Positions 818 through 20,845 of a stretch of 27,818 nt of DNA are shown here, piece by piece. How positions within the stretch are numbered: position 1 is the first letter of the stretch; every line of letters starts with the position of its first letter. The translations under genes and the position numbers were made by a program. Source of the DNA: a virus. The notes below the pieces were generated by a model. It was given only the letters and a program-made list of their open reading frames with translations, was not told the DNA's origin and did no database searches. Where the stretch lies: the IMG/VR virus record IMGVR_UViG_3300025759_000534, positions 1 to 27,818 of that record, one strand, 5' to 3'.

Positions 818-1063
818 CTATCCCTGCAACTCATTTAACCAAATTTTTATTTTCGCAGTTGTGTTTTTAGTTGGTGTGCTTCTAAACTCTAACCAATTAT
901 ATAATGTTTTTTTCGTAAGATTTAATTCTTTTGCAATCTCCTCAATCCCCTTGTTACAATCTAGTATGTGAGTAAAAAACTTTACTAAACTTCCCTCCAT
1001 AGACTGTGAATTTTTGTCTAATAGTCTTTGTATTTTTTCTTGTGTTTTTAAATATAATGCCAT
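818..1063 (-). CDS. Small helix-turn-helix protein
   Basis: This 81-residue protein has a helix-turn-helix pattern at about residues 38-60 (KGIEEIAKELNLTKKTLYNW), where the second helix could read DNA. The N-terminal 30 residues are helical and basic. The start has AGGAG followed by ATATTT. It lies between the primase and the ssDNA-binding-like gene and is preceded by a GAAA-loop hairpin, so it may be expressed at a lower level than the upstream operon. It could be a transcription regulator or a replication accessory factor; its target sites are not identifiable. Confidence 0.65.
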   Translation of the reverse strand: MALYLKTQEKIQRLLDKNSQSMEGSLVKFFTHILDCNKGIEEIAKELNLTKKTLYNWLEFRSTPTKNTTAKIKIWLNELQG

Positions 1064-2409: not shown

Positions 2410-3966
2410 TTAATTAATTTCTTGTTTATACAAATCAATCATTTTGTTATGAATGTTCTCCTTGTTTCTTAAAAGCGTGTATATTCTTTTTTCTACAGCA
2501 CTACCTTGTATATTAATAACTGTAGTTTTATTTTTCTGCCCTGCTCTATGCACTCTAGCATTAGCTTGAATATATGTTTCTAAACTTGTGGTAGGACTAA
2601 ACCAGATGACTGTATCCGCTCTGGTTAAGGTTACCCCATGTGCGGCTGACTGTGGTTGAATTACTAAAACTTTTAAGTCATCTTCTGTTTGAAACCTACT
2701 AAATATACTACCTCTTTTTGACGCAGAAACTGCACCGTTTATAACTGCATTATTAATTTTTTTCTTATTTAGAAACTCACTTACCATCTCTATTGCATTT
2801 CTAAATGGCACAAATATTAGTGCTTTGTTTGAAGTCTCATCAATAATCTCTTTTATAACCTTTAGTCTATCTTTTGCATCAAACCTTACAGTTTCTTTAG
2901 TATCGGAATAGACCGCCCCACAACTTATCTGAAGTAGTTTCTGCATTAGAGCAGCGGCATTTACAGCCGATATATCTTCTTCAGCAGCTTCAATGTACAT
3001 CTTGTTTCTTATATCTTTATAATATTTTTCTTGTTGCTTTGTAAGTGGTACATCTCTAGTCTGATAGGTTATAGCAGGTAAATCCATGCACTCTTCTTTT
3101 GTGAATCTTATCGCAGGTTGCAATACTTTGTGTACAGTAGTATTAGAGTTTTCTTTTGGAATCCATGTGAATTGAGACACCTTTAACATAACCATATCTT
3201 TCCACACCCCTGCAAACCTAGGTACTTTATTTGGATTTACTAATTTTGCTAGACCATAAGCATCAACTGGTGATTGAGCCGCAGGTGTACCTGTCATCAT
3301 CCAAAGTCGCATATTAGAATTCGCATTTATAATTCTATTCAAACACTTCCATCTTTTTGTTTGTGTGTTTTTATATGCGTTTGCTTCATCTATAATAATT
3401 AAATCGAAATTATTTTTTATAATATCTTTCTCGATAATCTCCATACCATCATAATTAATTATTACAAATTCAGAATCTTGTTTTAATATCTTTTTTCTTT
3501 TGTCAGCCGTTCCATAAGCAATATCACAAGTTCTATGAATTACAGTTCTCATAATATCGTTCTGCCATGCAGACTGCATAATCGAAAGAGGGCATACAAT
3601 TAACACTCTTTTTATCTGTTTCATTCTCATCAAGTAATCACATGCCCATATCGCAGACATAGTTTTACCTGTGCCTTGTTCATTAAAACAAAAACATCTC
3701 TTATATAAACTTAAAAACGAAGCAGTCTTTTTTTGATGGTCAAAAGGTGAGTAAAAACTTTCATACTTGTAATCTCTGTCCATAGTGGACATTACATTCT
3801 TTAGACCTATACCTGCTAATTTTTGTGCGTTCTCCAAATCCCAATGTACTAATACCTCATATACATCCCCATTCTTCTTTACAACTTTACTTTTTTCAAT
3901 GGCATCAGTAATTCGGTCAGGGTCGTAAACTCTAACCAATAATCCCCTATCTTCTACTACTTGCAT
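2410..3966 (-). CDS. SNF2-type DEAD/DEAH-box helicase
   Basis: This is a superfamily 2 ATPase of 518 residues. Walker A is GTGKT at 98-102, motif II is DEAN at 193-196, motif III is TGTP at 225-228, and motif VI is QANARVHRAGQ at 467-477 with the R-x-H-R-x-G-Q of the SNF2/Rad54 group. The conserved LIFVPFRN strand opens the second RecA-like lobe near 383. Such phage proteins translocate on or remodel DNA during replication or recombination, with ATP hydrolysis. The gene follows the HNH-like gene by one base. Its own Shine-Dalgarno is poor, so translational coupling is likely. Full length, no break. Confidence 0.9.
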   Translation of the reverse strand: MQVVEDRGLLVRVYDPDRITDAIEKSKVVKKNGDVYEVLVHWDLENAQKLAGIGLKNVMSTMDRDYKYESFYSPFDHQKKTASFLSLYKRCFCFNEQGTGKTMSAIWACDYLMRMKQIKRVLIVCPLSIMQSAWQNDIMRTVIHRTCDIAYGTADKRKKILKQDSEFVIINYDGMEIIEKDIIKNNFDLIIIDEANAYKNTQTKRWKCLNRIINANSNMRLWMMTGTPAAQSPVDAYGLAKLVNPNKVPRFAGVWKDMVMLKVSQFTWIPKENSNTTVHKVLQPAIRFTKEECMDLPAITYQTRDVPLTKQQEKYYKDIRNKMYIEAAEEDISAVNAAALMQKLLQISCGAVYSDTKETVRFDAKDRLKVIKEIIDETSNKALIFVPFRNAIEMVSEFLNKKKINNAVINGAVSASKRGSIFSRFQTEDDLKVLVIQPQSAAHGVTLTRADTVIWFSPTTSLETYIQANARVHRAGQKNKTTVINIQGSAVEKRIYTLLRNKENIHNKMIDLYKQEIN

Positions 3967-3967
3967 T

Positions 3968-4231
3968 TTATGCTACAGATTTATCCCCGTTTCGTTTAAA
4001 TGAACGATTCTTACTTGGACTTTGTAGTTTGTATCCATCTTTGTTAGAACCCCCTTTACTTAATGCTTTTTTGTGTGCAATATCTTTTCCTTTTCTATTG
4101 ACACCTTTTTTATCAAGTTTTCTTCTTGCTCGTTGTCTCTCCATTCTCGCTTCGTGAACAGATTTGTTCTTTGCGATTCTCCTCTTTTGTTGTTGGTATT
4201 CTTTTTTGTAGTCTCTTTTCTTTGTGGACAT
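3968..4231 (-). CDS. Small basic HNH-like phage protein
   Basis: The protein has 87 residues and is very basic. Residues 1-45 are an Arg/Lys/Gln-rich helix. The C-terminal half reads GKDIAHKKALSKGGSNKDG, then SPSKNRSFKRN. The DIAHK...GGSN...NRS spacing resembles HNH-type phage proteins, but the usual second catalytic histidine is not evident, so nuclease activity is uncertain. The ATG at 4231 is chosen because it sits 2 nt after the stop of the nuclease gene and has AAAGGG upstream; the longer frame would intrude 43 nt into that gene. Confidence 0.55.
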   Translation of the reverse strand: MSTKKRDYKKEYQQQKRRIAKNKSVHEARMERQRARRKLDKKGVNRKGKDIAHKKALSKGGSNKDGYKLQSPSKNRSFKRNGDKSVA

Positions 4232-4233
4232 AG

Positions 4234-4896
4234 CTACCCTTTCCCATTGTGTGGACAACTTAATACAGGACAAAATCTATAGCAGGTAAAATTTGGTTTT
4301 GCGTTCCAAACATCCTCTTTATAACAAGTGTCCATGACATCTACCTCTTTAAAAAAGTTAGACGCAATACCAATAACATCTCCCTTTTCATAAGATTTTG
4401 TGATAAAATCGTTGGTCACTAAATAAAGCAACCCTGCTTTTATAGAATTAAGATGGGGAAAGTGAGTAAAAGCCGCTACTGTAAATAAGTCGAGTTGTTT
4501 GGTGTCAGCATATTTACTGTTTTTCCCTGTCTTATAGTCTATTATCTTACCCTTATCTCCATCAACAATCAAGAGGTCAATGATACCTCTCCACCATACA
4601 TCATCAGCCAAAAAATCACATGGTTTCAAGTCTTTAGTCATACCTAATCTTAATTCGCAATGTTTTTCCCCTTTCATATTTTTAATTTTATCGATAGGTT
4701 CTTTAAACATTTGGTATGCTTCAGGTATTTCTACATCATTAGCCACATACTCCTCTGCAACTTTATGCACTTTATTGCCGTATAGTAATGCCTGTGTTTG
4801 TTTTTCAACAACATCTTTAGCCACCTTTAAATGGTAGTATTTCTTTGGACATTGCTGAAAAAGATTTAAACTAGAATATGACCAAGCTAAACTCAT
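4234..4896 (-). CDS. Cas4/RecB-like PD-(D/E)xK nuclease with Fe-S-type cysteines
   Basis: The 220-residue nuclease carries H44 (GNKVHKVAEEY), D107 (GIIDLL), D120 and K122 (IIDYKTGK) and Q134 (KQLDLF), the ordered motifs of the RecB/Cas4 group. One cysteine near the N-terminus (C16, FQQCPKKYY) and three near the C-terminus (C205, C209 and C214 in CYRFCPVLSC) match the layout that holds a 4Fe-4S cluster in Cas4 and AddB. It probably resects or trims DNA ends. It sits with the SNF2 helicase and HNH-like gene, and there are no cas1 or cas2 genes here, so a recombination or DNA-processing role is more likely than CRISPR adaptation. Confidence 0.82.
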   Translation of the reverse strand: MSLAWSYSSLNLFQQCPKKYYHLKVAKDVVEKQTQALLYGNKVHKVAEEYVANDVEIPEAYQMFKEPIDKIKNMKGEKHCELRLGMTKDLKPCDFLADDVWWRGIIDLLIVDGDKGKIIDYKTGKNSKYADTKQLDLFTVAAFTHFPHLNSIKAGLLYLVTNDFITKSYEKGDVIGIASNFFKEVDVMDTCYKEDVWNAKPNFTCYRFCPVLSCPHNGKG

Positions 4897-8326: not shown

Positions 8327-8610
8327 AAGTTCTCCAAAACTTTTGTTACACTTTGTATGTTATCACAATTTACTACGATTGCAATACCCCCATTAGAATT
8401 AATTGTATTTATATTTCTCTGTTGTAATGGAGTGGGTTTGTTTTTAGGTGTCGCTTTAACCTCAATGGCTACAAATCGAGATTTATAACACACTATAATG
8501 TCAGGTACTCCTGACACTCCATACCCACTCATTACAGGGTAAAAATAATATGCACCAAACTTTTTTAGAATGGCAACAACTTTATTCTTTACTTTCTTTT
8601 CAGGTGTCAC
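8323..8610 (-). CDS. VRR-NUC domain nuclease
   Basis: The 95-residue protein is a stand-alone VRR-NUC domain of the PD-(D/E)xK superfamily. The active-site elements are VPD (D37, in GVSGVPDIIV), E50-x-K52 (FVAIEVKA) and a glutamine pair at 63-64 (PLQQRN). Stand-alone phage VRR-NUC proteins are structure-specific or Holliday-junction-type nucleases, as the domain is in FAN1. The start codon is GTG, overlapping the preceding stop as GTGA. Full length for the single-domain viral form. Confidence 0.88.
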   Translation of the reverse strand: MTPEKKVKNKVVAILKKFGAYYFYPVMSGYGVSGVPDIIVCYKSRFVAIEVKATPKNKPTPLQQRNINTINSNGGIAIVVNCDNIQSVTKVLENL

Positions 8611-8882
8611 TTGTAGATTTTCTTTTCAATACGAATAGCACTCTGATATGCTTTTTTACCATTCGGTAATTTTGCATACACTTCTAGAAAATAATGGTGG
8701 TCATCTTCAGTTTCTATAATCTCATAGGGTACTTCTTCACCAACTACATTCTCAACATGGTCTGCCGACATGTCGGCAGTATTTCCATGCAACCAACTCT
8801 TTTCAGCTTTTACCATATCTTCTAGCTTACTTGTTGATTCATTTATTGAATCAATTATCTTACATATATTATCCAAGTCCAT
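8607..8882 (-). CDS. Hypothetical protein, 91 residues, carrying palindrome in frame
   Basis: No family recognised. An N-terminal helix (1-30) is followed by a linker containing NTADMSADHVENV and a beta-rich C-terminal half (EETEDDHHYFLEVY type). The linker is where the 16-bp TGCCGACATGTCGGCA element is read as coding sequence, giving the repeated Ala-Asp. The element lies in a region likely to be flexible. GGAG lies 7 nt before the ATG. It ends in a GTGA overlap with the VRR-NUC gene. Confidence 0.6.
   Translation of the reverse strand: MDLDNICKIIDSINESTSKLEDMVKAEKSWLHGNTADMSADHVENVVGEEVPYEIIETEDDHHYFLEVYAKLPNGKKAYQSAIRIEKKIYK
8763..8778. repeat. Palindrome site 1, TGCCGACATGTCGGCA, inside a CDS
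   Basis: Perfect 16-bp palindrome, the leftmost of twelve copies; central four bases CATG. It is read in frame inside the 91-residue gene. Confidence 0.9.
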
Positions 8883-9863: not shown

Positions 9864-10017
9864 AGTCATTCTCCTCATAGATTATTTTTGCAGTTATCAT
9901 ATCTTCGACCTTATGTCTGAATCGAATATCCTTTGTACCCTCACCACCATTTTGCATTTCTAACTCATGCAGTAAAAGTTCTAACTCTTCTCTTGTCATA
10001 GAATCTAAATCCATCAT
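9856..10017 (-). CDS. Hypothetical protein, 53 residues
   Basis: The protein reads MMDLDSMTREELELLLHELE, then a Gly-rich turn NGGEG and a second helix. Two ATGs are adjacent; the first overlaps the previous stop as ATGA and is used here. It ends inside the start region of the 72-residue gene. Small acidic helical hairpin, function unknown. Confidence 0.55.
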   Translation of the reverse strand: MMDLDSMTREELELLLHELEMQNGGEGTKDIRFRHKVEDMITAKIIYEENDYE

Positions 10018-10322
10018 TCCTCTCCCTCATATTCCCAAGCATAGATATATTTTTTTACAACTGCATAATCCTTAAGTGGCATTTCTTTACCAATAGTTAG
10101 ATAGGTGCGTCTATTGTTTACATTCCAACTAGGTAAGTACCAATCATCTTCTCTGTGTTCAGCTTCAGAATCCCAATGTTCAAGAATAAATTCTTTCTCA
10201 ATATCAGCATGATGTTTATTAACATCAACCTTTGAATCTATCTTCATTACTGATGGCATATCATACTCACCCTCTGAATCACATACAGTAGTCTCAACAC
10301 AATAATATTTATACATAATCAT
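10014..10322 (-). CDS. Hypothetical protein, 102 residues
   Basis: No family recognised. It opens MIMYKYYCVETTVCDSEGEY, rich in Tyr and Cys, and has a Trp/Asp-rich middle (EHWDSEAEHREDDWYLPSW) and a final helix ending AWEYEGEE. The overall charge is acidic. The start overlaps the upstream stop as ATGA and has GGAG upstream. Acidic, aromatic small phage proteins sometimes mimic DNA or inhibit host enzymes, but nothing here proves that. Confidence 0.6.
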   Translation of the reverse strand: MIMYKYYCVETTVCDSEGEYDMPSVMKIDSKVDVNKHHADIEKEFILEHWDSEAEHREDDWYLPSWNVNNRRTYLTIGKEMPLKDYAVVKKYIYAWEYEGEE

Positions 10323-10537
10323 TCCTCTCCTTTATATCCAAGTTCTTCTAATATTTCTCTAGCTTCATATATGTAGTTAGCATAATCTTCAGTAAGACTT
10401 ACTATACTTTCCTTACTATAATCATCAGGATAATCAATGATATCTATTATATAATCCCATGCTCTATCAAGTTTATCCCAAGCATTAATCAACTCATACT
10501 TTTCTTCATTAGAAGTTTCAATTCTCTTTTTCTTCAT
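10319..10537 (-). CDS. Acidic helical hypothetical protein, 72 residues
   Basis: It begins MKKKRIETSNEEKYELINAW and is then strongly acidic and aromatic, with a WDYIIDIIDYPDDYSKE segment and a terminal helix ending YKGEE. AAGGAG lies 8 nt before the ATG. It is the first gene of the small-gene cluster, and a palindrome copy lies 35 nt upstream of its start. Function unknown. Confidence 0.6.
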   Translation of the reverse strand: MKKKRIETSNEEKYELINAWDKLDRAWDYIIDIIDYPDDYSKESIVSLTEDYANYIYEAREILEELGYKGEE

Positions 10538-10571
10538 GTTTCTTTCTCCTTATTACTGGTTTCACAATGTG

Positions 10572-10587
10572 TGCCGACATGTCGGCA
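10572..10587. repeat. Palindrome site 2, TGCCGACATGTCGGCA
   Basis: Perfect copy in the 55-nt gap between the 388-residue gene and the small-gene cluster, placed ahead of the cluster's first Shine-Dalgarno. Confidence 0.9.
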
Positions 10588-10592
10588 ACTTA

Positions 10593-11759
10593 TCACAAAA
10601 GACTAACTGCGTAGCAATCACCCAACTTAAACCCAACATAAAAGATATCCTCATCACTACTAGAAAGTAGCGAATACTTATCTCGTATATCTTCAGGTAA
10701 ATCTTCAGGTGAATCATAGTAGTCTCTGACATATACCCCATCTCTATGAGAAACAACTGAATATTTATCATTAACAAAATTAACAAACACCATATGATTT
10801 TTCATATTCATATCAAGAAGAGTGTTCAAATAGTTATAGTCAGCGAGTATATCTTTATACTCATCTATAAATTTAAAAAACGATTTGGAAGATTCACTAC
10901 TCTCAACCTCTTTAATACAACTACCCAACTTATCTAGTGTGTCAGCGAAAGTATCTCGGTGCAAAATACCAAAATTAATTCTTTCTTCATTAACAAGGCT
11001 AGTCAACTCTTTATCAATTTTGTTAAGAGTTCTATGTGAATTATCATCACCACCAAACTTATATGTACTTCTAAACTCTTTAAGTTTTTGTTCAAAGAAC
11101 AATTGCTCGGTTTTGTCAGGTGCATGCATGGTATTAAAGATAATAGACCTAATACTTTTAGGCACAATACTACGACCACTATGCGACCTGTTATTATCTT
11201 TAAACTGTAATTCAAACCTCAAACCCTTTCCACCTCTACTAGAAGTATAAATATCTACTGCACCAATCAAAGTTTTGTCCACATAGAAACCTAATTCTAA
11301 ATCGGAAAAGATATTTCCAAAATACATCTTTAAATAGTATCCTGCGTAGAAACCCTGACCATCCGAACCATTGTAGTATTTGTCACCTATTACAACTAAA
11401 TCAAATAGACTTCTATCATAATCTTTTAGGTTTAAAATCTTATCAACTTCAAGGGGTAGATAAGTAGATTGATAATCTATATCAGAGGAAAGTGCATGTA
11501 TATCAGGCATATCATATGTTGCTCCATGATTAAGGACAACCTTTAATAGGTTTTTTTCACGACCATTTTTTTCAACCTCACCCCAAAAATTATGTTGTGC
11601 TTTATTTACACCCTTTAAACTAATTAGGTCGAGTTTGTGACCAAAGTGTTTAGATATTTTGAGTTCAACTTTTTTATCCCCAAATTTCTTTTTTACTGCA
11701 TCAAAAGCAATCTCGATTAAGTCTGCAAGATTACCACTCTGTTTCTTTTTTGTAGCCAT
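10593..11759 (-). CDS. Unknown 388-residue protein, third gene of AAA/VWA unit
   Basis: No family recognised. The N-terminus is MATKKKQSGNLADLIEIAFD, followed by alpha/beta segments, a Gly-rich stretch near YTSSRGGKGLRFELQF, a helical region (EQLFFEQKLKEFRSTYKF onward) and a beta-rich, Tyr/Asp-rich C-terminus. It is the last of three genes (AAA+ ATPase, VWA protein, this) with only 21 nt before it, and its leader and first codons copy those of the ATPase gene over about 25 bp. It may be the substrate or adaptor of the ATPase/VWA pair; this is inferred from position only. Confidence 0.65.
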   Translation of the reverse strand: MATKKKQSGNLADLIEIAFDAVKKKFGDKKVELKISKHFGHKLDLISLKGVNKAQHNFWGEVEKNGREKNLLKVVLNHGATYDMPDIHALSSDIDYQSTYLPLEVDKILNLKDYDRSLFDLVVIGDKYYNGSDGQGFYAGYYLKMYFGNIFSDLELGFYVDKTLIGAVDIYTSSRGGKGLRFELQFKDNNRSHSGRSIVPKSIRSIIFNTMHAPDKTEQLFFEQKLKEFRSTYKFGGDDNSHRTLNKIDKELTSLVNEERINFGILHRDTFADTLDKLGSCIKEVESSESSKSFFKFIDEYKDILADYNYLNTLLDMNMKNHMVFVNFVNDKYSVVSHRDGVYVRDYYDSPEDLPEDIRDKYSLLSSSDEDIFYVGFKLGDCYAVSLL

Positions 11760-11780
11760 GTTAAGTTCTCCTTATTAAAA

Positions 11781-13088
11781 TTAAATTACAACTGTTTTTC
11801 CAACATTGGGAGTATCATTACTCCCCTTAATACACCACAGTAAAGGTGCATTAACTTTACCCCAATCACCCCAACCATCTACATACCCATCAGTTAGCAT
11901 GATAACTACTTGTGGTTTGATATTGTTTTTCTCCAAGTATTTAGGAACACAATCAGGTGAAGTGCCACCACCCCCTCTCGGTCTACCCTCGACCTCAAAG
12001 CGAGAAAGTTTATTGTGCTTATAAAATTCAACTTTCTCAACATCAGTATCCCAATACAATACTCGAAGTGATTTTGGTTTGACTTGCTCACAAATCTTTT
12101 TTATTTCTGACGAAAATCGTGTAGCAAGTTCTTTATCATACAAGACAGAACCTGACGCATCATAACCAATAACAACATCACCAACAGATTTACTCTGTAG
12201 ACTTGGCATAAGTATCTCGTTGCCTAGCGACCTGCGATTCGGTCTCTGCCTTGTGACCTCACCATACCCTGAACAACTACTGACAATAAAGTTACGCAAG
12301 ACTTCTATCCAATCAGTCTTAACTTCAAATAGTTTTTCCAAGTCACCATCTTTTAGACCTGACCTGACACCTGCAAGGGCTTCACCTGACCGAAGTGCCT
12401 GACGCATATCCTCTGCCATCTTCTCTGCTTCTTCAGGATTGGCGAAGGCTTTTTTAGCTTCTTCCCAAAGGTGATTATCAAGTGGCTTACCCTTACCATC
12501 TTTACCATCACCTTGACCATCATCACCATCACCATCACCATCACCATCACCATCACCATCACCATCTCCTTGACCACTACCTTGTTTATCTTTAAGGTCT
12601 TGGTATATATCATCAAAGACTTGAGGAAAACTCCAATTCGCATATTTTGGATTACAACACCCACCCTCGATAAACTTGATGAAATCTTCTTCAGGTAAAC
12701 CATTCATCTTACAATACTTCAGATGTAGTTTGTTCCACCTTACAAGAATATTATTGACCACCTCATCCATAGCCATGTTCGTAACGATTGGACTTTTCAT
12801 AAAGTAGTCAAGATAAAACACCATGTGCATCAAGGCATTGTGCATTGTCTCATGGCAGATAAGAAACCTCTGTTCAGGTATACTCAAACCCTTGAAGAAA
12901 TCAAGATTGTAGTAAACCATCCTACCATCAGTAGCACCTGTGCGAATCTGCTCGTACTTTTTATCACCCTTACGCAAGACAGTAAAGGGTGTCTGTACCA
13001 TAACTCGTACAAGTCTACAGAAAGTAGGGTTATCACTTATCTGCGAATTAAGTGTGGATATAATATCCTCTGCTCTTTTTTGTTCCAT
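11781..13088 (-). CDS. VWA-domain protein with HExxH metallopeptidase-like motif
   Basis: The 435-residue protein has HETMH at 79-83 in the N-terminal domain (RFLICHETMHNALMHM), a zinc-peptidase motif, as in DUF2201-type phage and bacterial proteins. A low-complexity Gly-Asp linker follows at about 170-200. The C-terminal VWA domain has a full MIDAS metal site: D310-A-S312-G-S314, T376 (GGTSP) and D400 (LTDG). Such proteins work with MoxR-type AAA+ ATPases, one of which is encoded directly upstream with a 28-nt gap. That gap holds a palindrome copy. GAGGGGA precedes the start. Confidence 0.85.
   Translation of the reverse strand: MEQKRAEDIISTLNSQISDNPTFCRLVRVMVQTPFTVLRKGDKKYEQIRTGATDGRMVYYNLDFFKGLSIPEQRFLICHETMHNALMHMVFYLDYFMKSPIVTNMAMDEVVNNILVRWNKLHLKYCKMNGLPEEDFIKFIEGGCCNPKYANWSFPQVFDDIYQDLKDKQGSGQGDGDGDGDGDGDGDGDDGQGDGKDGKGKPLDNHLWEEAKKAFANPEEAEKMAEDMRQALRSGEALAGVRSGLKDGDLEKLFEVKTDWIEVLRNFIVSSCSGYGEVTRQRPNRRSLGNEILMPSLQSKSVGDVVIGYDASGSVLYDKELATRFSSEIKKICEQVKPKSLRVLYWDTDVEKVEFYKHNKLSRFEVEGRPRGGGGTSPDCVPKYLEKNNIKPQVVIMLTDGYVDGWGDWGKVNAPLLWCIKGSNDTPNVGKTVVI
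12521..12566. repeat. Hexanucleotide tandem repeat encoding Gly-Asp linker
   Basis: About seven and a half copies of CACCAT (plus strand) encode alternating Gly-Asp in the VWA protein. Such a run is prone to slippage, but each six-base gain or loss keeps the frame, so linker length can vary without destroying the gene. Confidence 0.85.
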
Positions 13089-13099
13089 ATTATCCCCTC

Positions 13100-13115
13100 T
13101 GCCGACATGTCGGCA
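13100..13115. repeat. Palindrome site 3, TGCCGACATGTCGGCA
   Basis: Perfect copy in the 28-nt gap between the ATPase stop and the VWA start, so the site is transcribed between the two cistrons. Confidence 0.9.
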
Positions 13116-13116
13116 A

Positions 13117-14256
13117 TTAAACTAAATCAATATTTTCACCAAGACCAACTGCACCCTTACCACATTCTTTAACAATGGTCATGTAGGGCTTACAAGTAAA
13201 TAGGTGTTTATGTAATGACTTGTTTCTAGTCAGAGTTTTAGTGAATAGATTCTTAAACTCTCTTTCCTCATAGCGACAAATATACTTACTGAATGTAGTC
13301 AAAGATTCTTTATCAGTAATCATCTGCGACAAGTTAAACATGGTCAGTAACTTACCTATTGCATCACTTGATACCCTAGCTTTTTCAGGATTCTTTTTTA
13401 TCTCATCAATCGGTACAAGTTTGTCCTCATGTTTTAGAAAGTCTAGTAAACTCGTTCCTGCAACCATACCAATCAAACCTGTAACCAAACACTCGAAAGC
13501 ATTTTGACTAGGTAGTTTATCTCTAATCTTCAATACATCAGACACCTGATGTAACCCACGCATAGTAATACCTTTTCTAGTAGGTGTGCTAGGATTAATA
13601 CCCCATACTGTATTTGGATTTGTAAGATAGTTCTCAAAGACATTACCCTCAAACTCTTTACTCCAAGCAAGTATCATAGGCTCATACTTTTGTTCTATTG
13701 GTAATTCAGAATTGTATGCAAGTAAACTATCTAATGATGGATTCTTCATCTTGATAGCCACCTCTCTATCTAACTCATGTGCGTAGATAGTATCACCAAC
13801 ACCCTCACCCTCAAGGTTTGATGTACACATCACAATAGTACCTTTAGGTAGTCGCACACCATTTATCTCACCTTTTTGAATGACATCAAGAAACTGATTA
13901 CGCACTTCTAACATACCCTTATCTTTTTCATCAAGGCATAGTACAAATGCTTCACCCTTGTGGAATTGGAAATATTCATTCCAAGCAAATGATGTGACTT
14001 TTACACCATCAATCTCTTTGACGATTGGATTGCCTGTATCACCAAGTGCTTGAGTAGGTAGAGATACCACAACTAGTTTTAACCCCAATCTATTTGCGAT
14101 TCTCTGTGGGATTGTAGTTTTACCACTACCCATTATCCCCCTGATTGTCATTGTCTTTGGTTTGATACCAAGATTAAGTTCTGCATCTCGCATAGCGATT
14201 GCTGTCTCGATTATCTCGACATCAGACATCTCTTGAATTTTAGTTTGTGTAGCCAT
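13117..14256 (-). CDS. MoxR-like AAA+ ATPase
   Basis: The 379-residue ATPase carries Walker A GIMGSGKT at 40-47, Walker B LCLDE at 106-110, sensor-1 TSN at 145-147 (VMCTSNLEGEG) and an arginine-finger candidate, R164, in HELDREV. The helical C-terminal part ends near KEC. MoxR-type ATPases use ATP to remodel protein complexes together with VWA partners, as in RavA-ViaA. The VWA partner is the next gene. AGGAG lies 8 nt before the ATG. A promoter at 14370-14398 and a palindrome at 14281-14296 lie upstream, so this gene probably heads a regulated three-gene unit. Confidence 0.88.
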   Translation of the reverse strand: MATQTKIQEMSDVEIIETAIAMRDAELNLGIKPKTMTIRGIMGSGKTTIPQRIANRLGLKLVVVSLPTQALGDTGNPIVKEIDGVKVTSFAWNEYFQFHKGEAFVLCLDEKDKGMLEVRNQFLDVIQKGEINGVRLPKGTIVMCTSNLEGEGVGDTIYAHELDREVAIKMKNPSLDSLLAYNSELPIEQKYEPMILAWSKEFEGNVFENYLTNPNTVWGINPSTPTRKGITMRGLHQVSDVLKIRDKLPSQNAFECLVTGLIGMVAGTSLLDFLKHEDKLVPIDEIKKNPEKARVSSDAIGKLLTMFNLSQMITDKESLTTFSKYICRYEEREFKNLFTKTLTRNKSLHKHLFTCKPYMTIVKECGKGAVGLGENIDLV

Positions 14257-16298: not shown

Positions 16299-16314
16299 TG
16301 CCGACATGTCGGCA
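16299..16314. repeat. Palindrome site 5, TGCCGACATGTCGGCA
   Basis: Perfect copy 34 nt before the start of the 365-residue gene, directly after the hairpin at 16318-16340. Confidence 0.9.
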
Positions 16315-16591: not shown

Positions 16592-17131
16592 TTACACCAT
16601 AATAGAATCTAAATACCACATTGGAGGTCGTCTGCCCCAATCCCATGATAAGTAATCTTTATCGTACATAATATAGTTACGATATGCCCTTGCATAGTTT
16701 TTATGCTTGTACTCATCAGGCATACATTGTGGTGGCTCGGTGAAGTTCCCATTCGGTAAATGATAGGGTGGTTTCTTCAACGGCTCATGTAAATCCAAAA
16801 AAGTCTTATGGTGCTTACCTCTACGATAATAAAACTCTCGACCTAATGCAACAAATAAAAGATAAGAAAATCTATAATTACCTGTACTACTTCTAGCCCA
16901 TATACATACAGGGTGATTGACATGAGCAATTTTATACAATCGCTGGTCGACTGCCTTGTCATTGTCAACCTCATCACATTTTCTATGTGCTGTACATAAT
17001 ATCTGACCTTGTTCTAGTACCATCTTACTTGCTAACTTATCAGGCATAGCCCTTGCAATATTTGTTACTGCTTTGAATCTAGCAAATTTATTCCAAGCAT
17101 CCTTGTACATTTCAGTAATAAACATATTCAT
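16592..17131 (-). CDS. Conserved phage protein, KMVLE/TAHR/MPDEYKH type
   Basis: The 179-residue protein holds blocks I recognise from many phages: KMVLEQGQILCTAHRKCD (about 36-53), a NHPVCIWARSSTGNYR block near residues 72-87, and PQCMPDEYKHKN near 133-144. The conserved His, Arg and Trp residues suggest an enzyme or DNA-contact site, and relatives are sometimes annotated as DNA glycosylase-like; I would not assert that activity. It starts with MNMFITEMYKDAW and overlaps the upstream gene by ATGA. Confidence 0.65.
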   Translation of the reverse strand: MNMFITEMYKDAWNKFARFKAVTNIARAMPDKLASKMVLEQGQILCTAHRKCDEVDNDKAVDQRLYKIAHVNHPVCIWARSSTGNYRFSYLLFVALGREFYYRRGKHHKTFLDLHEPLKKPPYHLPNGNFTEPPQCMPDEYKHKNYARAYRNYIMYDKDYLSWDWGRRPPMWYLDSIMV

Positions 17132-17880
17132 GCTATCCCCCTTTCATGTGCAATCTCTATCGCTTTTTTTCTAGCTTTCTGCATCATCTTGATACAGTAT
17201 GGGTTTGTCGTTGTATTTGAATTGATACTATTGATTTGCGTCATCTTACCTTGACCAATCGTAGTATGTACATGCTCATTCAATTCTTCAATAGTCCTCA
17301 CCCCATCATGTAGCCAATAAGAATTGTTATCAAATGGTTTAGTTATCGTTTTTCTGTACTGATTGATATGCTTATCTGAATAACATCCACCACATACAAT
17401 ATCACCGACTTGCATCTCTTTACCTTTTTGAATCTCGTTGATAACTTTTACATCATGTAGTTTATCGGAATAACACACTCGACACTCAATACATTTACCC
17501 TCACAGTTGATGTTGTTTGCCGACTTATCGGCACTCTTTGGAAATACATTGAACACCCCATGAAAATTTCTAGGTGGTTTGCTCATAGGTACACCCACAA
17601 CAGGGTTTGAGTATATCAATAGAAGATTGCTAGGAAGTTCCTTGAGTTGTGCTTTTACTCTATCAACAATCTCGGCTCGTTTAGTCCACAAAGTATAGGT
17701 AGTATTCGGATTGTTTTTTGCAATCGTCACACAATTAATAAAAGAATAATCGTTCTCAATTTCACCATGCGAATGGAATCTTACAAAGTTGGCATTGAGA
17801 TATTTTAATTTGTTGTTTGGCTTGGGTGTATACCCTGACCACTTGTGCCGACCTGTCGGCTTGAATGTAATAATATTCAT
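17128..17880 (-). CDS. Cys-rich phage protein, possibly circularly permuted
   Basis: The 250-residue protein carries VRFHSHGEIENDYSFINC near 33-50, TLWTKRAEIVDRV near 63-75, a four-Cys block C126, C130, C133, C136 (CEGKCIECRVCY) and C163/C166 (VCGGCYSDK). In phage relatives I recall, a CY-type block comes first, then the FRWHxSGD-like block, then the GxCxxCxxCY block; here the CGGCY block comes last. The cysteines suggest a metal or Fe-S site. Two palindrome copies lie inside the gene, at codons 7-12 and 116-121. AAGG with a long spacer precedes the ATG, and a promoter with a structured leader lies upstream. Confidence 0.6.
   Translation of the reverse strand: MNIITFKPTGRHKWSGYTPKPNNKLKYLNANFVRFHSHGEIENDYSFINCVTIAKNNPNTTYTLWTKRAEIVDRVKAQLKELPSNLLLIYSNPVVGVPMSKPPRNFHGVFNVFPKSADKSANNINCEGKCIECRVCYSDKLHDVKVINEIQKGKEMQVGDIVCGGCYSDKHINQYRKTITKPFDNNSYWLHDGVRTIEELNEHVHTTIGQGKMTQINSINSNTTTNPYCIKMMQKARKKAIEIAHERGIA
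17518..17533. repeat. Palindrome site 6, variant TGCCGACTTATCGGCA, inside a CDS
   Basis: Arms TGCCGA/TCGGCA are intact and the centre is CTTA. It is read in frame as SADKSA in the Cys-rich protein, just before the CEGKC block. Confidence 0.85.
17846..17861. repeat. Palindrome site 7, variant TGCCGACCTGTCGGCT, inside a CDS
   Basis: Arms match except the last base; the centre is CCTG. It lies 20-35 nt inside the Cys-rich gene, so it is transcribed near the 5' end of that mRNA. Confidence 0.8.
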
Positions 17881-18013: not shown

Positions 18014-18186
18014 TCTTTCTCACCTGCCGACTTGTCGGCTAGGTATATTTTTCTGCCTACATAACAAAGTATGAGAGCAAAGGCTACAAAAAGATTTAAA
18101 CCTAATTCAGTTTGCGTCAAGATGTCATAACTTGCTAGTGCCATAACCCCATACGCATACAACATTAAAAATAAAATAAAAAACAT
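18010..18186 (-). CDS. 58-residue membrane protein
   Basis: A short frame starting MFFILFLMLYAYGVMALASY, with hydrophobic spans at about 1-19 and 30-44 and a charged tail LADKSAGEKD. GGGGG lies 4 nt before the ATG. It is the last of four coupled small genes. The palindrome at 18025-18040 is read in its tail. The two spans suggest a small inner-membrane protein; a holin-like role is possible but unproven. Confidence 0.55.
   Translation of the reverse strand: MFFILFLMLYAYGVMALASYDILTQTELGLNLFVAFALILCYVGRKIYLADKSAGEKD
18025..18040. repeat. Palindrome site 8, variant TGCCGACTTGTCGGCT
   Basis: Arms match except the last base; the centre is CTTG. It lies 12 nt upstream of the -35 of the 17985-18013 promoter and inside the tail of the 58-residue gene. 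Confidence 0.85.
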
Positions 18187-18347: not shown

Positions 18348-18476
18348 TCACCCTCCAAAAGTTAATATTACACATATAATAAACCAAATGCATGGTATCG
18401 CTACAATGCTACCTAGAAAATACAGGGCTAGTTCTTTACAACTAACCCCTTCAAAAATTTCAAATAACTCTTTCAC
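18348..18476 (-). CDS. 42-residue membrane protein, GTG start
   Basis: A short frame starting GTG (MKELFEIFEGVSCKELALYF), with a hydrophobic span at about 17-40 containing two Cys. The GTG overlaps the upstream stop as GTGA, and GGGGG lies 5 nt before it. Single span; function unknown. Confidence 0.5.
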   Translation of the reverse strand: MKELFEIFEGVSCKELALYFLGSIVAIPCIWFIICVILTFGG

Positions 18477-18643
18477 ATGTACCCCCTATATTTTTTCTTG
18501 GTTAATTCATGGTTAAGTGAAGTTGTATTGTTTCTCAATGTAACACCTAACCCAATATAAGATGGTGTGTTGTATTTTGGAAATATAGTACCTCGTACTT
18601 GTTTCCACATCTTTGGTGTAAATCGTTTTGTTTTAATCATCAT
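18473..18643 (-). CDS. Small basic protein, 56 residues
   Basis: It begins MMIKTKRFTPKMWKQVRGTI and is strongly basic throughout, ending LTKKKYRGYM, so nucleic acid binding is plausible. The first ATG of a pair at 18643 is used because AAGG lies 5 nt upstream; a longer frame would start inside the palindrome at 18662-18677. It heads the four-gene set read from the promoter at 18719-18747. Confidence 0.6.
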   Translation of the reverse strand: MMIKTKRFTPKMWKQVRGTIFPKYNTPSYIGLGVTLRNNTTSLNHELTKKKYRGYM

Positions 18644-18661: not shown

Positions 18662-18677
18662 TGCCGACATGTCGGCA
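18662..18677. repeat. Palindrome site 9, TGCCGACATGTCGGCA
   Basis: Perfect copy 18 nt before the start at 18643, in the leader from the 18719-18747 promoter, with the GGTTGAAA flank shared with site 4. Confidence 0.9.
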
Positions 18678-18718: not shown

Positions 18719-18747
18719 AGTCTATCATAGAAATTACACTTTGTCAA
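18719..18747 (-). promoter_or_regulatory. Sigma70-type promoter for the 18.0-18.6 kb small genes
   Basis: TTGACA and TAGACT are separated by 17 nt with the spacer AAGTGTAATTTCTATGA, a near-copy of the 17985 promoter. Palindrome copies lie on both sides: 18761-18776 (13 nt upstream of the -35) and 18662-18677 (in the leader). Confidence 0.78.
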
Positions 18748-18760
18748 TATTTCAAGGGTG

Positions 18761-18776
18761 TGCCGACATGTCGGCA
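18761..18776. repeat. Palindrome site 10, TGCCGACATGTCGGCA
   Basis: Perfect copy upstream of the 18719-18747 promoter; its centre is 99 bp from that of site 9. Confidence 0.9.
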
Positions 18777-19341: not shown

Positions 19342-19369
19342 AAAAAAAAGCCCTGCAAAATGCAGGGCT
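19342..19369 (-). terminator. Rho-independent terminator of the 228-residue gene
   Basis: On the minus strand GCCCTGCA and TGCAGGGC form an 8-bp GC-rich stem with a 3-nt loop, followed by eight T. It lies 30 nt after the stop of the gene at 19401-20087 and would stop leftward transcription before the R element region. Confidence 0.88.
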
Positions 19370-19400: not shown

Positions 19401-20087
19401 TTATTTATTAGTATTTATTGTTACTTTAATTTGCTGTAACATTTTTGCTAACTGTGGCTTTATCTTTTTTAAACTCTCTTGAGATTTAAATTTATTAACT
19501 CTTGTATCATTAGAGTCAGCATCTAAAGTATTTTCAATAGTGGTAACCATTTTAGCTATTTTGTCACCATCAATTATGTTGATAGTCTTTTTATCAAATG
19601 CCTTATTGAGAATTCTATTAATCATAGCTCCCATTTTTGGCATTGCAATCCTATCTGCTATAGACTTATCAATTTTTAAATTTTTAACAACTCTATCTTT
19701 TTTATTACTGTTAAAAAGTCCTGCTAATACAAATTTTGAAAACCCTTTATCTATTCTATTATATTCAGTTTTAGATAACAGATTTTTCAACTGAAACATT
19801 AAACCACTATGGCATACATCTATATACATAAACCCTGCTGTTTCAATACCCTTACCTTTCTCTACTGACTTAAATAACTTTTTAGCGTCCATTTCAAGTG
19901 GGATTAATTTTTTAATCATGTTAGCTGATTTTTCGATAATCTCATCTGTAATGCTTTTAGCTATTGAGTTTTTAACAATAATTTCACCAATATCTTTAGT
20001 TAGTTTACTACTGTTAATTGAATCATATAACTGTTCTATTGATGATTTATTGTTAGTATCGATATTTAATGCATTTCCATTTTTCAT
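19401..20087 (-). CDS. Orphan 228-residue protein, candidate regulator or initiator
   Basis: No family recognised. The protein is basic and Ile/Lys/Asn-rich, mostly helical, starting MKNGNALNIDTNNKSSIEQL. A conserved-looking centre includes KGIETAGFMYIDVCHSGLMF, and a basic helical end runs SLKKIKPQLAKMLQQIKVTI. It has its own promoter (20164-20192), leader hairpin, two flanking palindromes and a strong terminator. It sits between the divergent control region and the R element cluster, where a phage often places its master regulator or replication initiator. No classic HTH is visible by eye, so this role is inferred. GAGGT lies 5 nt before the ATG. Confidence 0.6.
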   Translation of the reverse strand: MKNGNALNIDTNNKSSIEQLYDSINSSKLTKDIGEIIVKNSIAKSITDEIIEKSANMIKKLIPLEMDAKKLFKSVEKGKGIETAGFMYIDVCHSGLMFQLKNLLSKTEYNRIDKGFSKFVLAGLFNSNKKDRVVKNLKIDKSIADRIAMPKMGAMINRILNKAFDKKTINIIDGDKIAKMVTTIENTLDADSNDTRVNKFKSQESLKKIKPQLAKMLQQIKVTINTNK

Positions 20088-20107
20088 AATTTACCTCTAT
20101 AAGTTGT

Positions 20108-20123
20108 TGCCGATTCGTCGGCA
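20108..20123. repeat. Palindrome site 11, variant TGCCGATTCGTCGGCA
   Basis: Arms TGCCGA/TCGGCA are intact and the centre is TTCG. It lies in the leader of the 228-residue gene, between its hairpin and Shine-Dalgarno. Confidence 0.9.
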
Positions 20124-20134
20124 GGTTTAAAAAT

Positions 20135-20153
20135 GTTAGGAATAATTCCTAAC
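20135..20153 (-). promoter_or_regulatory. Leader hairpin with T-run, possible attenuator
   Basis: On the minus strand GTTAGGAA and TTCCTAAC pair perfectly over 8 bp with a 3-nt loop, followed by ATTTTT. It lies a few bases after the predicted start of transcription and before palindrome site 11, so it could stop most transcripts before the 228-residue gene unless relieved. Confidence 0.6.
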
Positions 20154-20163
20154 TCTTATAACC

Positions 20164-20192
20164 ATTATTACACTTTTAAATCTAATTGTCAA
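20164..20192 (-). promoter_or_regulatory. Promoter of the 228-residue gene
   Basis: TTGACA is followed after 17 nt by AATAAT, with TGT just before it (extended -10 type). AAAGTGTAAT overlaps the spacer and -10, linking it to the other leftward promoters. Confidence 0.6.
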
Positions 20193-20232: not shown

Positions 20233-20248
20233 TGCCGATTCGTCGGCA
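20233..20248. repeat. Palindrome site 12, variant TGCCGATTCGTCGGCA
   Basis: Identical to site 11 and centred 125 bp from it. It lies upstream of the leftward promoter, in the divergent region. Confidence 0.9.
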
Positions 20249-20411: not shown

Positions 20412-20482
20412 ACACTTTCCCAGAAACCCCCCCGTCACTTTTTTTGGTTCCATACCCACCCCACATATGGTATTCTGTAAAA

Positions 20483-20845
20483 ATGAAGACGTATGCACCT
20501 ATATTTTTTATACCCGCTATATTCTGGGCTGTGATTTATTTTACCTATTCACATGCTTGGAAGTTGGATGACCTAGACCCCTATAAACGGTGTGAAGAAA
20601 TATATCACCTAGCAGTAACCTTTGCGGATATTAGAAACCATGACCTAATACCATCGGTAAAAACAAATAGGATGCTCACCCCATTTGAGCAAGACGTACT
20701 TCACGAAGTAGATAGAAGAGTGGTAGAATTAATGCATCTAAAACTAAATAAACCAGAAAAGTATAAAGGAATGTTAGAGAATCCAAATGCTATTGGTTTA
20801 CAGATATATGACGAATGTTTGTTAGACGAAGGTATCTACGAGTGA
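20483..20845 (+). CDS. Membrane-anchored hypothetical protein, 120 residues
   Basis: It starts MKTYAPIFFIPAIFWAVIYF, a single hydrophobic segment at about 5-22 that could be a signal anchor. A soluble helical domain with two Cys (one near the start, one near the end) follows. It is the first rightward gene, before a second small membrane gene and terS. Lysis or host-membrane roles are possible; no holin, endolysin or spanin family is recognised. The ATG at 20483 is chosen because it places the hydrophobic segment at the N-terminus; an upstream ATG at 20444 would add 13 residues. Neither has a good Shine-Dalgarno. Confidence 0.55.
   Translation: MKTYAPIFFIPAIFWAVIYFTYSHAWKLDDLDPYKRCEEIYHLAVTFADIRNHDLIPSVKTNRMLTPFEQDVLHEVDRRVVELMHLKLNKPEKYKGMLENPNAIGLQIYDECLLDEGIYE

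Follow-up and report, generated by a model that had tools for sequence, protein, structure and literature searches.

A candidate autoregulator in an exchangeable gene slot, and the dispersed palindromes that accompany it, in podovirus-like environmental phages

The DNA analysed here (the window) is a virus record of 27,818 bp, with leftward genes occupying 1–20 kb, followed from 20.4 kb by rightward late genes (TerL-like, portal). The reading that best fits its sequence is that the final leftward gene ahead of the late genes, an orphan, encodes an autoregulated DNA-binding regulator of a regulon of dispersed palindromes, and we put the probability of this at about one half or marginally better. 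A role as an autoregulated master regulator had been proposed in a preliminary description of the orphan, and it fits best because, in related phages, exchange of the gene at this position (the slot) goes along with exchange of the palindrome family. The same comparison gives less for the distinctive sites seen at the orphan itself: variant slot sites occur in two other types of phage, while the slot copy of a third, L007, is not distinctive.

The orphan gene and its control elements

The portal protein of the window is 38–42% identical to those of HTVC023P, HTVC027P and 023Pt_psg01 and less similar to those of other phages. The annotated phages with this common portal (HTVC023P, HTVC027P, RW, DSL-LC04, Pag-Yong1 and CRP-901) have other layouts and were uninformative on the slot. 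Further into the leftward genes, we note an AAA ATPase adjoining a DUF2201_N/VWA-like protein (11781–14256), with relatives in many Pseudomonas and Vibrio phages, and a relative of the PHROG 624 'DNA binding protein' (16592–17131), which is elsewhere annotated as a pyrimidine dimer DNA glycosylase and is common to L034 and L063.

The preliminary description held that, among the leftward genes, only the orphan has a control set of its own. The set is real, comprising a promoter, a leader hairpin, two TGCCGATTCGTCGGCA palindromes and a terminator (Table 1). The promoter ties for the best of 48 promoter-like sites in the region, a total which is not above that of shuffled sequences (56.2), and the terminator ranks top where terminator-like sites number 22 against 8.5 expected. 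The orphan is not alone in this, however, as the 56-aa ORF beyond the candidate origin has the same set, including a leader hairpin (18706–18689) and a terminator-like hairpin (18449–18424) with a weaker tail than that of the orphan.

No homologue or domain of the orphan was found in Pfam, PHROGs, PDB sequences, 50,697 phage records or GTDB genome contigs, and the sole match in a search of viral contigs was the same virus (L001). At useful E-values the orphan matched no Pfam or PHROG family, and thus no helix-turn-helix or other DNA-binding domain was recognized by sequence, which bears out the earlier remark that no domain is visible. Profile and structure prediction had been suggested as a check; the profiles are without a match and the AlphaFold model, made from a single sequence, has a pLDDT of 37 and is unusable.

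Table 1. Features of the window (strand given as − or, where not applicable, a full stop)
Feature	Position	Strand	Basis
Small helix-turn-helix protein, PHROG 4268-like repressor (E 5.5e-5); rival candidate reader of the palindromes	818..1063	−	profile match
Palindrome within ORF 8607–8882	8763..8778	.	palindrome scan
Palindrome 34 nt before ATG of gene 10319–10537	10572..10587	.	palindrome scan
Palindrome between AAA and VWA genes; missing in L091	13100..13115	.	palindrome scan + alignment
Palindrome in AAA-gene leader; core is CCCTCGTATACGAGGG in L091	14281..14296	.	palindrome scan + alignment
Palindrome 33 nt before ATG of gene 15168	16299..16314	.	palindrome scan
Palindrome within gene 17128–17880	17518..17533	.	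palindrome scan
Palindrome (1 mismatch), first codons of gene 17128–17880	17846..17861	.	palindrome scan
Palindrome (1 mismatch), upstream of promoter 18013–17985	18025..18040	.	palindrome scan
Second single-gene cassette, 56 aa; same control elements, opposite side of candidate origin from orphan	18473..18643	−	sequence + scans
Palindrome in second-cassette leader, ~+42.5	18662..18677	.	palindrome scan
Second-cassette promoter	18719..18747	−	promoter scan
Palindrome upstream of promoter 18747, centre ~−56.5	18761..18776	.	palindrome scan
Candidate origin: TGTTCC/GGAACA inverted repeats and 14-bp tandem repeat; repeats conserved in L007	18780..19330	.	sequence + alignment
Intrinsic terminator of orphan cassette	19349..19369	−	terminator scan
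Slot gene (orphan), candidate palindrome-reading autoregulator	19401..20087	−	228 aa, basic, pI 9.74
Shine–Dalgarno-like GAGG upstream of orphan ATG	20094..20097	−	sequence
Palindrome TGCCGATTCGTCGGCA in orphan leader, 20 nt before ATG, centre ~+41.5	20108..20123	.	palindrome scan
Orphan leader hairpin GTTAGGAATTATTCCTAAC, then ATTTTT	20135..20153	−	hairpin scan
Orphan promoter TTGACA-17-AATAAT, TG before −10, 11/12	20164..20192	−	promoter scan
Palindrome TGCCGATTCGTCGGCA, 40 nt upstream of orphan −35, centre ~−83.5	20233..20248	.	palindrome scan

Palindromes of the window and of related phages

The palindrome family of the window is TGCCGA-N4-TCGGCA, which is two-fold symmetric; matches to TGCCGANNNNTCGGCA with up to two mismatches number 12, against 0.17 expected from shuffles. 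The centre is TTCG in exactly two of the 12, both of which flank the orphan promoter, and CATG (seven), CTTA, CCTG or CTTG in the other ten. As the preliminary description stated, the TTCG centre differs from all others in the window, but the distinct affinity that it drew from this is not implied: a different centre alone does not mean a different binder, because the spacer also varies in relatives (TAAG, CATA and TATA in CCCTCG-N4-CGAGGG).

Six of the 12 window palindromes sit 11–34 nt before an ATG, a position that would suit RNA hairpins in leaders, with control of translation or stability and a cassette controlled after transcription; the predicted hairpins are also stable (−8.6 kcal/mol in the window and −11.9 kcal/mol in L091). 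The copies at 18025, 18761 and 20233, however, lie upstream of their accompanying promoters, and the L063-type palindrome folds weakly (−2.9 kcal/mol) yet is repeated as often. These two points make a DNA site likelier, though several leaders do have hairpins, and we regard the RNA explanation as highly improbable.

Among the related phages we distinguish five palindrome types, all two-fold symmetric and with unrelated cores: TGCCGA-N4-TCGGCA in the window, CCCTCG-N4-CGAGGG in L007, TTAGAC-N1-GTCTAA in L063, ATGTCACAATTGTGACAT in L014 and TAGG..CATAATTATG..CCTA in L013. The TGCCGA palindrome was not found in L007, L006 or L091, which hold three, one and one exact copies of CCCTCG-N4-CGAGGG, respectively. 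L091 and L007 come from one metagenome, yet they are only 72–76% identical across their overlap and are thus two separate phages; the slot falls outside the L091 contig. At the leader of the AAA gene, alignment of L091 to the window gives flanks that are ~90% identical (88 of 99 positions match on the upstream side and 25 of 27 on the downstream side), whereas the cores, TGCCGACATGTCGGCA and CCCTCGTATACGAGGG, agree at only four of 16 positions. We also note that between the AAA and VWA genes a palindrome of ~16–19 nt (window 13100–13115, compared with L091 3160–3230) is cleanly absent from L091, which looks like the gain or loss of a whole site.

L063 and L034 are more distant; both keep the PHROG 624-like gene and L063 also has AAA and VWA-like genes. 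Exact copies of TTAGAC-N1-GTCTAA number seven in L063 and eight in L034, many of them 3–20 nt before an ATG, that of the AAA gene included. Those at 1899, 3281 and 4992 in L063 and at 3333 and 4813 in L034 end 3–4 nt before the ATG, at the Shine–Dalgarno place. In L014 we count six ATGTCACAATTGTGACAT sites where 0.01 are expected, and the 77.8-kb record of L013 (G007) has seven TAGGNNNTCATAATTATGANNNCCTA sites with up to three mismatches against none in the control. An earlier half-site pattern for L013 was at chance level (five matches against 2.6 expected) and was rejected.

An automated scan for exact 6-mer palindromes recovered repeated sites in the window, L007 and the L034/L063 families, together with a small number of families that are clustered or terminator-like (L004, L051, L052, L059, L077 and L083); extending the scan to 5-mers in 24 longer loci gave no further dispersed-looking family. 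The sites of L013 and L014 escaped both scans, having been spotted by eye and then tested, so other loci may hide families that were missed.

Exchange of the slot gene

Related contigs were collected through TerL and the upstream regions of 27 loci were tabulated; L012, L013 and L014 were taken further, and L017, L039 and L078 were covered by the family scan only. An isolated leftward gene with its own promoter and an upstream palindrome occupies the slot in five types, those of the window, L007, L063, L013 and L014. L007 (IMG/VR 3300030451_006078) aligns to the window on both sides of the slot and carries, in place of the orphan, a 200-aa leftward gene (3741–4343) with a promoter at 4423–4396 (10/12) and a terminator at 3721–3700. 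Single leftward slot genes with a promoter are likewise present in L012 (262 aa), L013 (225 aa), L063 (288 aa) and L014 (196 aa). The terminator scan placed a terminator after the slot gene in four of the five types (window, L007, L013 and L063), and L014 has a hairpin and T-run seen by eye only; L012, where a terminator was also called, shows only a weak inverted repeat. Small ORFs stand where the slot gene would be in L004 and L005.

The six slot proteins (window, L007, L012, L013, L014 and L063) show no detectable relationship to one another, with hhalign probabilities of 0.1–1.1% for all pairs and 100% for a within-family positive control, and BLASTP gave no supported match between slot proteins of different types. 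All five of those measured are basic (pI 8.7–9.7). The L007 and L006 proteins are 84% identical, and dN/dS values of 0.10–0.18 within two families (L007/L006 and L063/L034/L109/L113) place the slot proteins of both under apparent purifying selection, so that the differences between types look like replacement and not fast drift. A model of the L063-type protein from four sequences reached a pLDDT of 57, with a moderately confident helical N-terminal domain (residues ~7–127) at ~60–90 and the rest poorly modelled. It gave no Foldseek match at E 0.001 in the PDB (also with VIA-align) or BFVD, the best Z being 4.5; the failed fold search has no bearing on function or DNA binding.

The slot gene adjoins the inverted-repeat region that forms the candidate origin, which would suit a replication initiator for the neighbouring repeats; an initiator was the other proposal of the preliminary description. 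The window and L007, the slot proteins of which are unrelated, nevertheless both keep the origin repeats (alignment score of 154, where 100 shuffles reached at most 32). L013 and L014, again with unrelated slot proteins, have common AACTGGT(A/T)TCAAA words and an alignment score (42) slightly above the shuffle maximum of 36. Conservation of the window and L007 repeats while the slot gene is exchanged disfavours an initiator, which we consider very unlikely.

Each of the five palindrome types pairs with one slot-protein family, and the types with several members keep both: the L007 and L006 slot proteins occur with CCCTCG sites and those of L063, L034, L109 and L113 with TTAGAC sites. When the window is compared with L091, L099 and L101, eight of its 40 ORFs are without a counterpart (six with no match and two with an insignificant one), the slot gene and the 56-aa gene among them. 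Between L014 and L013, seven of nine genes match at 72–96% identity; the two without a counterpart are the slot gene, with no match, and gene 3551–4168, with an insignificant match. The slot is the sole position common to both lists, and this, together with the pairing of palindrome and protein, is our main argument for the slot protein as the reader of the palindromes. The argument is correlational and drawn from a small sample of five types; a swapped gene beyond these possible contig fragments would fit equally, and any lineage-specific gene would be expected to show co-exchange as well.

The slot gene could instead be a regulated target, that is a lineage-specific early protein for host takeover or counter-defence which is swapped often since hosts differ, the palindromes being read by another phage or host protein. 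We regard this as possible, although with the odds clearly against it. Its location beside the late genes and its orphan status suit an accessory early gene, and the early genes of the related pelagiphage HTVC027P are described as all of unknown function (PMC12753301). The window also encodes a rival candidate reader, a small helix-turn-helix protein (Table 1) that is present in the L091 and L088 records and has diverged to ~50% in L099, where many neighbours are at 80–90%. Against this, its helix-turn-helix core, TKKT(L/I)YNW, is the same in the window and L099 despite different palindromes, and the L034, L063 and L013 records, possibly fragments and searched without a positive control, yielded no relative. 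The first of these objections is soft, because cluster A repressors with a common helix-turn-helix can have distinct stoperators (PMC6550527). On balance, the case for this protein as the palindrome reader is weakened, and the regulated-target explanation leaves the variant slot sites of three types unexplained.

The sites at the slot promoter bear on the preferred reading, that of the slot protein as an autoregulator. The upstream palindrome lies 40, 17, 11, 18 and 3 nt from the −35 element in the window, L007, L063 (at 9023), L014 and L013, respectively, with estimated centres at −83.5, −59.5, −54.5, −62.5 and −52.5. In the window the TTCG centre is found in both slot sites and in none of the ten others. 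In L013 (G007) an ATAT centre is found in both of the sites flanking the slot gene and in none of the five others, and in the L063 family a TTGGAC arm replaces TTAGAC in the slot-promoter copy of all four members. The corresponding hypergeometric figures (1/66 and 1/21) are post hoc. The TAAG centre of the L007 slot copy recurs at G003:2707, and the symmetric core of the L014 slot copy is identical to that of copy 1843.

Proposed mechanism and comparison with known systems

GalR-type operator pairs flank a promoter, one site being near −60 and the other downstream of the start, such that looping is possible. The site pairs of the window, spaced at 99, 125 and 179 bp, resemble this arrangement; no LacI/GalR-like protein was seen. 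In the early promoter stem-loop (PeSL) cassettes of T4-like phages a promoter and stem-loop precede small exchangeable genes. Unlike these, the palindromes described here look like duplex-DNA sites, with one sequence per genome.

In cluster A mycobacteriophages (L5, Bxb1), according to PMC6550527, one short site is present in many genomic copies, one of which is linked to repressor autoregulation, and the consensus shifts with the repressor. The present system is similar in its many dispersed copies, in having a site at the candidate regulator's own gene and in a site that changes with the candidate reader. It differs in that cluster A stoperators are asymmetric 13-bp sites read by related repressors, with similar motifs within a clade, whereas here the sites are symmetric and unrelated, as are the candidate readers; the asymmetric, transcription-oriented sites typical of stoperators were not seen. 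The extended start-associated sequences (ESAS) of cluster K mycobacteriophages, set out in PMC3203893, are inverted repeats that closely precede many gene starts; their consensus varies between phages and they have no known reader. Repeated inverted repeats ahead of gene starts that differ between phages are common to both systems, but the ESAS are 17-bp imperfect repeats beside a fixed SAS word with few differing positions, whereas here there is no SAS word and the cores are wholly different. A search of the open-access literature found no description of the slot or its palindromes, and palindromes or inverted repeats are not mentioned in the accessible text of PMC9599517; the part for which no description was found is the joint exchange of unrelated candidate readers and unrelated palindromes.

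The mechanism that we propose is as follows. A small basic phage regulator would bind the 16-bp palindromes scattered over its own genome and control its own promoter through the two flanking TTCG copies. Its regulon would consist of leftward genes with CATG-type copies at promoters or ribosome-binding regions, namely the AAA/VWA operon, gene 15168, gene 17128 and the 56-aa gene. With sites centred at about −52 to −62 (−83 in the window) and others downstream of the start, a bound dimer or a two-dimer loop might block or tune transcription, and variant sites at the regulator's own gene could set a separate level. In relatives, an unrelated regulator would replace the gene and the palindromes would change along with it. 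The identity of the regulator, its binding and reading of the palindromes, the sign of regulation and the looping are what we infer from these comparisons.

More tentatively, environmental podovirus-like phages may possess a modular control locus with one fixed slot, where DNA-binding regulators that are unrelated and of unassigned fold take one another's place. Each regulator would bring its own palindrome, and the dispersed sites would all change in sequence together while largely keeping their positions; this would be an immunity-like exchange of specificity without homologous repressors. We think this generalization somewhat doubtful. Should the slot proteins indeed read the palindromes, each type would yield a new family of DNA-binding protein whose target sequence can be taken directly from the genome. 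The locus would then offer a tractable case of joint change in a phage regulator and its many dispersed operators, the presence of a lone orphan gene inside a conserved control cassette would be explained, and the matched protein–site pairs could be tested in one binding experiment.

Three observations concern the late-gene side of the slot. A C-rich block (AAAACCCCCCCGTCAC or similar), at 20424–20485 in the window and also present in L007, L004, L012 and L014, precedes the rightward late genes and is conserved although the slots differ; it may serve as a promoter for late genes or as a signal for packaging. L003 and L004 have an additional rightward gene (L004 1833–2423), 2OG-Fe(II) oxygenase-like by eye, which separates the conserved late genes from the slot region. 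In L063 the TerL frame (9935–12460, 841 aa) contains, by eye, an intein-like insert (CFVAGT...VHNC).
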